Source of the DNA: Pseudomonas sp. sp1636
GTDB taxonomy: Bacteria > Pseudomonadota > Gammaproteobacteria > Pseudomonadales > Pseudomonadaceae
Assembly (NCBI RefSeq): GCF_030376615.1
Contig: NZ_JARRAB010000004.1
Span: forward strand, 1 to 64,000
Reading direction: 5' to 3'
Length of the DNA: 64,000 nt
The notes under the pieces were generated by a model. It ran no database searches. It had not been told where the DNA came from and worked only from the letters and a program-made list of their open reading frames with translations. This document shows positions 42,404-49,655 of the stretch, piece after piece. Each line of letters begins with the position of its first letter. Within the stretch, counting starts at the first letter, position 1. The position numbers and the translations under genes were made by a program.

Positions 42404-43836
<1,433 letters not shown>

Positions 43837-43840
<4 letters not shown>

Positions 43841-44922
43841 GGCGGAGATGCTCCTTGTTCAAGCGGCAGGAAGATCGAGAACACGGTATGACCAGGATGG
43901 CTCTCGCACTCGATCAAGCCCTGATGCTGGCTAATGATGTTCTGAGTAATGGCCAGGCCCAGCCCGGTGCCGTCGGCACGCCCGCTGACCATGGGATAGA
44001 AGATGGTGTCCTGCAGCTCGGCGGGGATGCCGGGGCCGTTGTCGATGATTTCCAGGCGGGCCACCAGCCGGTGGCGGACATGGCCGATGGTGAACTGGCG
44101 CAGGGTGCGGGTGCGCAGGGTGATGCGGCCCAGGCGCAATTCGTTCTGCGAGCCGATCGCTTGCATGGCGTTGCGCACGATATTGAGCACGGCCTGGATC
44201 ATCTGTTCGCGATCGATCAGCACGTCGGGAATGCTCGGGTCGTAGTCGCGCACCAAAATGATGCTGCCCTGGCTTTCTGCCTCGACCAGGCTGCCGACCC
44301 GTTCCAGCACCTCGTGCACGTTGGTCATCGCCAGCGACGGCAGCTTGTTCGAGCCGAGCATGCGGTCGACCAGATTTCTCAGGCGGTCGGCTTCTTCGAT
44401 GATGACGTTGGTGTAGTCCCTGAGGCCTTCGTTCGGCAGCTCGCGGGCCAGCAATTGGGCGGCGCCGCGAATGCCGCCGAGCGGATTCTTGATCTCGTGG
44501 GCCAGGCCGCGCACCAGGATCTTGGTGGTTTCCTGCTTGGACAGCTGCGCCTCTTCCTTGGTGATGCGCAGCAAGCGGTCGCGTGGGTGTACCTCCAGCA
44601 ACAGCAGGGTCTCGCCGCGGTTGAGAATCGGCGTTACCGCGTAGTCGACGGTGAGGGTCTGGCCGGTGACGGCGGTGAGTACCGCCTCGCGTTTATTGAA
44701 CGGATGCGCCTGCTCGACGGCCTGGCGCAGGGCGCTCAGCGCCTCGGCCGATTCGGTGAACAGCTCGCTGATGAATTGTCCGTGGCTGCGTTGGCCGCTG
44801 ACGGCCAGGAGCATTTCCGCCGCCGGGTTCATGTACTCGAGGCGCAGGTCGGCGTTGAGCAGCAGGGTGGCGGTGGTCAGGTTGTCGAGCAGCAGGCGGT
44901 GCAGTGCGTCGTTGATAGTCAT
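43837..44922 (-). CDS. ntrB: NtrB (GlnL), nitrogen sensor histidine kinase
   Basis: A 361-residue cytosolic kinase/phosphatase. A PAS domain (about 10-120, LLLNADLRLEYMNPAAEMLL) is followed by the H-box VRGLAHEIKNPLGGIRGAAQ and ATPase boxes IIDNGPGIPAELQ and GTGLGLAITQNI. It has no membrane helices, as expected, because it senses nitrogen through PII. It is followed by ntrC with a 4-bp overlap. Unlike E. coli, glnA is not directly upstream: two DUF4124 genes lie between. Confidence 0.97.
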
Positions 44923-45116
44923 AGGCAGAGGCTTCCGGCAATGCAGCAGGAAAATGCAAGAAGCAAACCAAAGCGCCGAAAAGACCCGCGCAATAAGCCG
45001 TGGCGGCGACTTGGGAGCGTTTCAGTTTGGCCGCCAGGGGTGCGGGCGAACCAAAACAGGGACAGCATAGCCTGTGGTGCGGCGACGCGCACCAATATGG
45101 TGCGGTGTCTGCGCGG

Positions 45117-46464: not shown

Positions 46465-47871
46465 TTAGACGCTGTAGTACAGGTCGTATTCCAGCGGGTG
46501 AACGAAGGTGCGGACTTTGATTTCTTCTTCGCTCTTCAGTTCGAGGTAGGCGTCGATGAAGTCGTCGGAGAATACCCCGCCCTTGGTCAGGAACGCGCGG
46601 CCCTTGTCCAGCTCTTCCAGGGCTTCTTTCAGGCTGCCGCAGACTTGCGGGATCAGCTTGCCTTCTTCCGGTGGCAGGTCGTAGAGGTTCTTGTCGGCGG
46701 CATCGCCCGGGTGGATCTTGTTCTGGATGCCGTCCAGGCCGGCCATCAGCAGCGCGGCGAAGCACAGGTACGGGTTGGCGGCCGGATCCGGGAAGCGCGC
46801 CTCGATGCGGCGGGCTTTCGGGCTGGTCACATAGGGGATGCGGATCGAGGCGGAGCGGTTACGCGCCGAGTAGGCCAGCATCACCGGTGCTTCGAAGCCC
46901 GGAACCAGGCGCTTGTAGGAGTTGGTCGCCGGGTTGGTGAAGCCGTTCAGGGCCTTGCCGTGCTTGATGATGCCGCCGATGAAGTACAGGGCGGTGTCGG
47001 ACAGGCCGGCATAGCCTTCGCCGGCGAAGGTGTTCTTGCCGTCTTTGGAGATCGACATGTGTACGTGCATGCCCGAACCGTTGTCGCCATACAGCGGCTT
47101 GGGCATGAAGGTGGCGGTCTTGCCGTAGGCGTCGGCCACGTTGTGCACGCAGTATTTCAGGGTCTGAACTTCGTCAGCCTTGGCTACCAGGGTGTTGAAC
47201 TGCACGCCGATTTCGTTCTGGCCGGCAGTGGCCACTTCGTGGTGGTGCACTTCGATGACCAGGCCCATTTCTTCCATGGCATTACACATGGCAGTACGGA
47301 TTTCGTGGTCGTGGTCGAACGGCGGAACCGGGAAATAGCCGCCTTTGACGCCTGGGCGGTGGCCCTTGTTGCCACCCTCGACGTCCTGGTCGGACATCCA
47401 GGAACCCTGTTCGGAGTAGATCTTGAACATCGAGCCGGAGATGTCGGACTTGAACTTCACCTCGTCGAAGATGAAGAACTCGGGCTCCGGGCCAACGAAC
47501 ACGGTGTCGCCGATGCCGGTGGACTTGAGGTATTCCTCGGCGCGGGCGGCAATCGAGCGTGGGTCGCGATCGTAGCCTTGCATGGTGCTCGGCTCGACGA
47601 TGTTGCAGACCAGGATCAGGGTCGGCTCTTCGGTGAACGGGTCGAGCACGGCGGTGTCGTCGACCGGCATCAGGATCATGTCGGAGGCTTCGATGCCTTT
47701 CCAGCCATGAATGGAGGAGCCGTCGAACATCTTGCCGATTTCGAAGAAGTCTTCGTCCAGTGCATCACGCGCGGGCATGGTGATGTGGTGCTGCTTACCC
47801 TTGGTGTCAGTGAAGCGCAGGTCTACCCACTTCACGTCGTGTTCTTTGATCAGTTGAATCGACTTCGACAT
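46465..47871 (-). CDS. glnA: GlnA, glutamine synthetase type I
   Basis: A 468-residue enzyme. The start [20 protein letters not shown] (ATG 47871) has GGAGG five bases upstream. The metal and glutamate loops [16 protein letters not shown] and [17 protein letters not shown] and the ATP loop [10 protein letters not shown] are complete. Tyr397 in [11 protein letters not shown] is the adenylylation site, so activity is set by GlnE as in E. coli. It makes glutamine from glutamate, ammonia and ATP. Transcription should be driven by a sigma-54 promoter (47969) and NtrC sites (48058-48103). The next genes are on the same strand, but a terminator follows. Confidence 0.98.
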
Positions 47872-47968
47872 GCTGTCCTCCAGGTGGATAAGGCTCGCCA
47901 TGGTGAGCCCTCGATAATGGTGTACGGTCCGGCGCGATAGTCCGCCAGGATAACCTGCCTCACAAGGG

Positions 47969-47984
47969 AGCAAATTGCATGCCA
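47969..47984 (-). promoter_or_regulatory. Sigma-54 promoter of glnA
   Basis: TGGCATGCAATTTGCT on the minus strand matches TGGCAC-N5-TTGCW with one substitution, keeping the invariant GG (-24) and GC (-12) twelve bases apart. It predicts transcription from about 47958, leaving a leader of about 87 bases to the glnA ATG. Confidence 0.85.
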
Positions 47985-48057
47985 GTGCACGGGAATGGGC
48001 TGAGTGGCTGAAACTCAGGTGTGGCGAGGCTTGCGCGGAACAGGAGACACAATTAAT

Positions 48058-48103
48058 GCACCAAAATGGATCCTTGCAAACCTTGTGCGCACCAATTGAG
48101 TGC
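48058..48103. promoter_or_regulatory. Two NtrC-binding sites upstream of glnA
   Basis: GCACCAATTGAGTGC (48089-48103) and GCACCAAAATGGATC (48058-48072) match the NtrC consensus GCACY-N5-GGTGC, the first nearly fully and the second in one half. Their centres are 31 bp apart and fall about 107 and 138 bp upstream of the predicted glnA start. From memory the E. coli glnAp2 enhancer sites are at -108 and -140. Confidence 0.82.
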
Positions 48104-48152
48104 GTTGCGGTGGGGTGGTGGTATTTTTGGTCAAAGCTTGCACAATTTCCGC

Positions 48153-48158
48153 TATAAT
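48153..48158 (+). promoter_or_regulatory. Likely -10 box of thiI
   Basis: An exact TATAAT 42 bp before the thiI ATG. The -35 match is poor (TTGGTC with a long spacer), so the promoter may be weak. It lies 50 bp past the distal NtrC site of the divergent glnA. Confidence 0.5.
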
Positions 48159-48200
48159 CCGCGCCCCTGTTTTTTAGCCGTCTCGGTATGCGCTGTTTTA

Positions 48201-49655
48201 ATGAAACTGATCGTTAAAGTCTTTCCAGAAATCACCATCAAAAGCCGGCCGGTGCGTAAGCACTTTATCCGGCAATTGGCGAAGAACATCCGCTCGGTGC
48301 TGCGCGATCTCGATCCGCAGCTGCTGGTTAGCGGTGTGTGGGACAACCTGGAAGTCGAAACGGCGATCAGCGAGGCGAAAACCCTGCAGGCCATGATCGA
48401 GCGGCTCAGCTGCACGCCGGGGATTACCCATTTTCTCCAGGTCGACGAATACCCGCTGGGCGACTTCGACGACGTGCTGGACAAATGCAAGACGCATTTC
48501 GCCGACCAGCTGCCGGGCAAGATCTTCGCCGTGCGCTGCAAACGCGCCGGCAAGCATGCGTTCAGCTCGATGGACATCGAGCGCTATGTCGGCAGCCAAT
48601 TGCGCCAGCAATGCGGCGCGGCCGGGATCGACCTGAAGCAGCCCGAAGTCGAAGTGCGCATGGAAATCCGCGACCAGCGCCTGTTCGTGATCCATAACCA
48701 GCACCAGGGCCTGGGCGGTTACCCGCTGGGTTCGCTGGAGCAGACCCTGGTGCTGATGTCCGGCGGTTTCGATTCCACGGTCGCCGCCTACCAGATGATG
48801 CGCCGTGGCCTGGTCACCCATTTCTGCTTCTTCAACCTCGGCGGCCGCGCCCACGAGCTAGGGGTGATGGAAGTCGCCCATTACCTGTGGCAGAAGTTCG
48901 GTCGCTCGCAGCGCGTGCTGTTTATCAGCGTGCCCTTCGAGGAAGTGCTCGGCGAGATTCTCGGCAAGGTCGACAACAGCCAGATGGGCGTGATCCTCAA
49001 GCGCATGATGCTGCGCGCCTCCACCCACATGGCCGAGCAGTTGCAGATCAATGCGCTGGTCACCGGCGAGGCGATTTCCCAGGTTTCCAGCCAGACCCTG
49101 CCGAACCTCTCGGTGATCGACTCGGCCACCGACATGCTAGTGCTGCGCCCGCTGATCGCCAGCCACAAGCAGGACATCATCGACACCGCCAGCGCCATCG
49201 GCACTGCCGAGTTTGCCAAGCACATGCCGGAGTATTGCGGGGTGATCTCGGTGAACCCGACCACCCGGGCGAAGAAAGACCGCATCGAACACGAAGAGCG
49301 TCAGTTCGATATGGCGATTCTCCAGCGCGCCCTCGAACGCGCGACCTTGCTGCCGATCGACAAGGTGATCGACGAGCTGGGCAAGGACGTCAAGGTCGAG
49401 GAAGTCAGCGAAGCCCTGGCCGGTCATGTCATCATTGATATCCGCCACCCCGATGCCGCCGAAGAGCAGCCTCTCGAGTTGCCCGGTGTCGAAGTGCAAA
49501 CGCTGCCGTTCTATGCCCTGAACAGCCGCTTCAAAGAGTTGGATGAGAATCGTCAGTACCTGCTGTATTGCGACAAGGGTGTGATGAGCCGTCTGCATGC
49601 CCACCACCTGCTCAGCGAGGGACATGCCAATGTGCGCGTTTATCGTCCGGCATAA
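48201..49655 (+). CDS. thiI: ThiI, tRNA 4-thiouridine synthase / thiazole sulfur-transfer enzyme
   Basis: A 484-residue enzyme starting [20 protein letters not shown] (ATG 48201). It has an NFLD and THUMP domain (about 1-165), a PP-loop ATP pyrophosphatase ([20 protein letters not shown], about 180) and a C-terminal rhodanese domain with the persulfide Cys in [10 protein letters not shown]. It forms s4U8 in tRNA and, through its rhodanese domain, donates sulfur to thiamine thiazole. It is divergent from glnA, with a 330-bp shared control region between. Confidence 0.96.

Follow-up and report, generated by a model that had tools for sequence, protein, structure and literature searches.

The window analysed, a 64-kb stretch of DNA from Pseudomonas sp. 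sp1636, carries a type I glutamine synthetase gene, glnA, and encodes both NtrC and NtrB. The GlnA protein is 95-96% identical to GlnA of P. oleovorans and P. guguanensis, and NtrC shares 69% identity with E. coli GlnG, the two being almost the same in the C-terminal HTH stretch. The genes on the minus strand are arranged in the order glnA - DUF4124 - DUF4124 - ntrB - ntrC, while thiI and typA are encoded on the plus strand in the opposite direction. On the minus strand, a simple scan predicted no terminator in the interval from glnA to ntrB. The genes and predicted control elements are as follows.

42404-43840, minus strand: ntrC (glnG), with receiver, sigma-54 interaction and Fis-type HTH domains
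43837-44922, minus strand: ntrB (glnL), NCBIfam NF008293 above cut-off
45088-45104, no strand: single near-perfect predicted NtrC operator before ntrB, centre 45096, 23.2 bits
45117-45731, minus strand: second DUF4124 protein gene, Pfam PF13511
45735-46433, minus strand: DUF4124 protein gene, Pfam PF13511, true start probably further in
46465-47871, minus strand: glnA, type I glutamine synthetase, NCBIfam TIGR00653 and NF007006 above cut-off
47958, minus strand: predicted glnA transcription start (+1), by convention from the -12 GC
47969-47984, minus strand: sigma-54 promoter of glnA, TGGCAT-N5-TTGCT, matching 11 of 11 consensus positions and kept across Pseudomonadaceae
48057-48073, no strand: predicted promoter-proximal NtrC site, centre 48065 (-107), 14.2 bits
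48088-48104, no strand: predicted promoter-distal NtrC site, centre 48096 (-138), 18.0 bits
48153-48158, plus strand: TATAAT, thiI -10 element (divergent promoter), kept in an alignment of the genus
48201-49655, plus strand: thiI, divergent neighbour of glnA, NCBIfam TIGR00342 above cut-off

An earlier note on this DNA had proposed a sigma-54 promoter before glnA, and this -24/-12 promoter was confirmed as a conserved, full-consensus element that reads TGGCATGCAATTTGCT on the minus strand from 47984 to 47969. The +1 position was set by placing the C of the promoter GC at -12. By itself the motif is weak evidence, as it occurs near the chance rate in the window (7 matches with at most one mismatch, 5.57 expected; two of the seven exact). 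Between glnA and thiI no other sigma-54 match in the window reaches 10 of 11 positions, and this one is directed at glnA. A second full-consensus sigma-54 promoter, TGGCACAACCCTTGCT, lies on the minus strand at 3240-3225 and has no NtrC pair. When glnA loci were compared, 210 of 251 had an upstream promoter matching at least 10 positions out of 11 and 41 had none at this level, versus matches in 1.4% of first-order Markov shuffles; the count excludes L001 as well as L035, L221, L228 and L256, four loci that lack an anchor. Order searches had added 43 glnA loci, 15 of which, all in the G113 order, had no promoter at this threshold. Nine of the 32 genomes in that order lacked any close GlnA match.

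The two NtrC sites that the note had placed at -107 and -138, 31 bp apart, were recovered as predicted sites at the same positions, so that two NtrC palindromes stand upstream of glnA a whole number of helical turns apart. The proximal 17-mer reads TGCACCAAAATGGATCC on the plus strand, and the distal one, CGCACCAATTGAGTGCG, fits the strict palindrome pattern. The matrix behind these scores was trained solely outside Pseudomonadaceae, and the analysis used only the 210 promoters that reach 10 of 11 positions, thinned to 184 at 85% identity. Among about 513,000 shuffled positions, one scored at least 18.0 bits (1.9e-6) and nine scored at least 14.2 bits (1.8e-5). The pair before glnA is unique in the 64 kb when both sites are required to score at least 8 bits and to lie 18-33 bp apart, and the NtrC sites before glnA exceed chance expectation. 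An exact IHF consensus was found within -200 to -1 of glnA in none of 96 Pseudomonadaceae. The glnA leader RNA folded no better than its shuffles (z = -0.38) and gave no Rfam match at the gathering threshold.

In its sigma-54 promoter and its two NtrC sites about three turns apart, the region resembles E. coli glnAp2. With the same code, the NtrC sites of E. coli (L116) were placed at -108 and -140, 32 bp apart, in agreement with the note's claim of a spacing close to that of glnAp2. The E. coli glnA control region also includes a sigma-70 promoter, glnAp1; a simple scan of 47860-48210 found no counterpart, and the same scan missed the conserved TATAAT of thiI too. From the -12 element on into the leader (47970-47930) the sequence is nearly constant in Pseudomonadaceae: GTGAGGCAG occurs in 85 of 96, versus 1 of 116 regions elsewhere. 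The motif TTG(T/C)GA-N16-18-GANTAT is present there in 75 of 96 versus 0 of 116; it may be a sigma-70 promoter that overlaps the sigma-54 promoter.

The note had further stated that glnA and ntrBC do not form an operon here. This holds in part: two DUF4124 genes intervene, so that glnA, glnL and glnG are not adjacent as in E. coli glnALG, but ntrBC lie nearby on the same strand and in the E. coli order. Like glnALG, the cluster has a single NtrC operator before ntrB/glnL and has typA on the other side of glnA; unlike E. coli, thiI stands between glnA and typA. The operator, CGCACCAATATGGTGCG, has the top NtrC score in the window and lies 174 bp upstream of the ntrB start; the E. coli glnL operator scores 24.4 bits. 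Of the 67 named loci that could be scored, 64 have a site of at least 14.8 bits before ntrB (exceptions L185, L188 and L191), the scorable set being drawn from 80 named loci and complemented by E. coli, and the other 13 having no NtrB H-box in the sequence. Since the E. coli gene order and the glnL-type operator are retained, the separation of glnA from ntrBC is less surprising than the note had made it, and the retention of both the glnA enhancer pair and the ntrB operator points to an inherited circuit that is known in kind. A further NtrC-like palindrome within the ntrB coding sequence (44249-44265, centre 44257, 18.1 bits) may be a chance match.

Within Pseudomonadaceae the arrangement is largely constant. 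Among 96 non-redundant regions the best pair lies at -138/-107 in 49, at -139/-108 in 21, at -140/-109 in four and elsewhere in 21, and one region (L069) has no pair; in 81 of the 95 regions with a pair the proximal site falls at -107 to -109. Because the E. coli-like geometry is common to most Pseudomonadaceae examined, it is best ascribed to inheritance. The thiI side was compared as well. Of 92 Pseudomonadaceae regions that carry a pair, 78 have the TATAAT of thiI, and the distance from the distal NtrC site to this element (48096 to 48158) is 62 bp in 58 of the 78. In Pseudomonadaceae pairs the enhancer distance was unchanged in 26 of 35 with respect to the thiI promoter versus 19 of 35 with respect to the glnA promoter. 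Constant length within the family was therefore rejected as proof of looping, the distance on the thiI side being equally constant.

To describe the geometry across Gammaproteobacteria, 67 glnA regions were used, namely E. coli and a sample of roughly one region from each family other than Pseudomonadaceae, with 21 named loci left out; the matrix was trained on the sites, not the positions, of 88 regions that contain these 67. The regions carried 2.39 NtrC sites on average versus 0.144 in shuffles, and 95.5% of them had at least two sites versus 1.1% of shuffles. The spacing between the sites, determined in 201 regions with a pair, was 31 bp in 121, 29-33 bp in 172 and 19-22 bp in 26. Measured from the predicted start, the strongest site per region showed a clear phase at 10.5 bp (R = 0.58, n = 66, Rayleigh p = 2e-10; residual relatedness is ignored here and shared ancestry inflates all the Rayleigh p-values), and no phase was seen when the same sites were measured from a coding-sequence anchor (R = 0.075). 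In 28 regions outside the matrix training, which come from few clades, R was 0.43 at 10.5 bp (p = 0.005) and a period of 11.0 bp fitted better (0.50). Natural distances thus cluster at whole turns, and the sites at -107 and -138 in the window deviate from the class phase by no more than about 1.5 bp. Not all clades follow this phase: the G083 order has sites at -121/-142, 21 bp apart and about 3 bp off (seven loci, L292 and L294-L299), Marinobacter and a relative have them at about -132/-162, and locus L143 at -199/-229.

The displacement of the proximal site between relatives was analysed in 87 pairs that are independent on the GlnA tree, for which the 174 of 201 paired regions with enough GlnA were used. 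The distance changed by at most 1 bp in 50 pairs, by 2-3 bp in five and by at least 4 bp in 32. Thirteen of these 32 shifts measured 9-14 bp and nine measured 20-25 bp, with none at 15-19 bp, one at 7 bp and nine above 25 bp, a clustering at whole turns that was significant against a jitter of plus or minus 5 bp (p = 0.0005). In these pairs the length of the 5' leader showed no whole-turn clustering (44 changes, mean cosine -0.27). The 32 shifts fit 11.5 bp slightly better than 10.5 bp (0.43 versus 0.38), and for the 19 shifts between pairs of sites three turns apart 10.5 bp was the best of five periods. The phasing period is not sharp, as 10 to 11 bp all fit, and some of the 13-14 bp shifts, in which palindromes overlap, may be misread pairs.

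An untrained pattern, consisting of a strict NtrC palindrome, a gap of 44-104 bp and a sigma-54 promoter, was then searched for in 185 gammaproteobacterial genomes. It gave 143 matches in 82 genomes, and the reversed-pattern control gave matches in 0 of 185. The distances formed a comb with teeth at about -87, -97, -108, -119/-120 and -129 and almost no matches in between (R = 0.53). Restricting the data to a single match from each genome gave R = 0.55 (p = 1e-11). Counted in this way, the matches at glnA gave R = 0.79 (22 genomes), labelled matches at other genes R = 0.48 (26 genomes; p = 0.003, or 0.026 at the low end of resampling) and unlabelled matches, which include three genomes without a located glnA, R = 0.64 (45 genomes). 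In a further search 24 of 64 genomes of the class match the pattern, and 23 matches in 17 genomes outside the 185 gave R = 0.60 with a phase of -2.6 (one per genome, p = 0.002); for the 17 of these 23 that lie outside Pseudomonadaceae R was 0.51 (one per genome, n = 12, p = 0.06). In other classes of the phylum, matches in 1 of 175 genomes for the pattern and 2 of 175 for the reversed control make the pattern uninformative there.

A Pfam check covered 20 of 30 reading frames behind such matches, the ten left out being of GlnA length. The 20 proteins comprise glutamine synthetases of type I (three) and type III (one), P-II proteins (three), nitrite-reductase-like flavoproteins (four), MFS transporters (two), an NMT1-like binding protein, an electron-transfer flavoprotein, a phosphofructokinase and four members of Gcw_chp (PF09694), an uncharacterised family. 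The Gcw_chp genes were seen in L305, L309, L314 and L321; in L305 the gene is divergent from a P-II gene. The Gcw_chp product is a candidate nitrogen-starvation protein. The phosphofructokinase-family gene lies behind a match at -131 in L322.

We consider it highly probable that the region between glnA and thiI holds an inherited, nitrogen-controlled NtrC/sigma-54 promoter of glnA, whose geometry has probably been kept by selection on the helical face. What is observed is the set of elements with its conservation, the pairing of sites 31 bp apart and a phasing of about 10.5 bp. The regulatory steps are modelled on E. coli. Under nitrogen limitation NtrB would phosphorylate NtrC, and two NtrC-P dimers would occupy the pair of sites, three helical turns apart, in a cooperative manner and then oligomerise. 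The oligomer would loop the DNA and spend ATP to open the sigma-54 polymerase at 47984-47969. From the single strong operator before ntrB, NtrC would control its own gene, by repression if the analogy with E. coli holds. The enhancer geometry would have come from a gammaproteobacterial ancestor and would have been held by selection on the helical face. Such selection is likely, as enhancer distances differ mostly by whole turns, which suggests that NtrC approaches the promoter from the same side. Work cited in PMC3900584, as given in the available part of that article, holds that the activator must reach the promoter on the side of the helix that is left unbound, and this would be a reason for the phasing of the enhancers.

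That the distances are fixed by descent alone, the comb being an echo of a few ancestral positions and of the 31-bp pairing, appears improbable. Identical distances in 22 of 43 independent Pseudomonadaceae pairs speak for it, several peaks of the comb stem from few clades, and part of the data counts the two sites of a pair together. Yet the phasing persists with one site per region (about one per family) and with one match per genome, the shifts between relatives that are independent on the tree concentrate at one turn and at two, and labelled promoters of genes other than glnA show the comb as well, if more weakly. Chance matches to short motifs can practically be set aside: the rate of the sigma-54 motif in the window would allow them, but the conservation, the pairing and the unique position before glnA contradict them.

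It is very unlikely that the NtrC sites mainly serve the divergent sigma-70 promoter of thiI. The distance of 62 bp between the distal site and the thiI -10 element, seen in most of the family, would fit this reading, but the unconserved stretch on that side is short, so that few indels are expected, and E. coli glnA has near-identical distances although its divergent neighbour is typA. Together with the glnA-facing sigma-54 match, the E. coli distances led us to reject thiI as the main NtrC target. Selection on the helical face of an inherited enhancer remains our preferred reading. The broader proposal, that NtrC enhancers including that of glnA are held on one helical face relative to the sigma-54 promoter throughout Gammaproteobacteria and that glnA is face-dependent at natural NtrC levels, is one towards which we lean with some reserve.

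Minchin reportedly examined, in 1989, the NtrC-dependent nifLA promoter of Klebsiella, a single promoter at the bench, whereas here natural variation over many genomes was used. Among the literature matches listed, from a search with subscription journals mostly outside its scope, there was no earlier report of cross-genome phasing at glnA. The accessible part of a report on P. stutzeri A1501 (PMC8443478) describes a putative NtrC site before glnA, a feature shared with the window, gives no geometry for it and calls ntrC distant from glnA. In Vibrio, 61 qrr enhancers of LuxO form loops whose lengths cluster at intervals of about 11 bp, according to the available text of PMC4740811. These are likewise sigma-54 looping enhancers with stepwise loop lengths, but qrr concerns another activator within one genus, whereas the present comb is one of NtrC sites, at glnA and at further nitrogen genes, in many families. 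The comb extends the evidence for stepwise loop lengths to NtrC and glnA. A 2020 review (PMC7408454), in the part available, describes helical phasing as shown for activation loops, not for glnALG, where facing may matter less; the evolutionary shift of enhancers by whole turns argues instead that the glnA enhancer is face-dependent.

What is new is the comparative helical comb, which is worth specialist attention; the control region itself is known in kind. The comb turns the old question of the helical face at glnA into a testable one, and the natural changes in spacer length yield a simple rule for the annotation of NtrC promoters. The control region, an ordinary one, suggests that the classic nitrogen switch of E. 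coli is ancestral.
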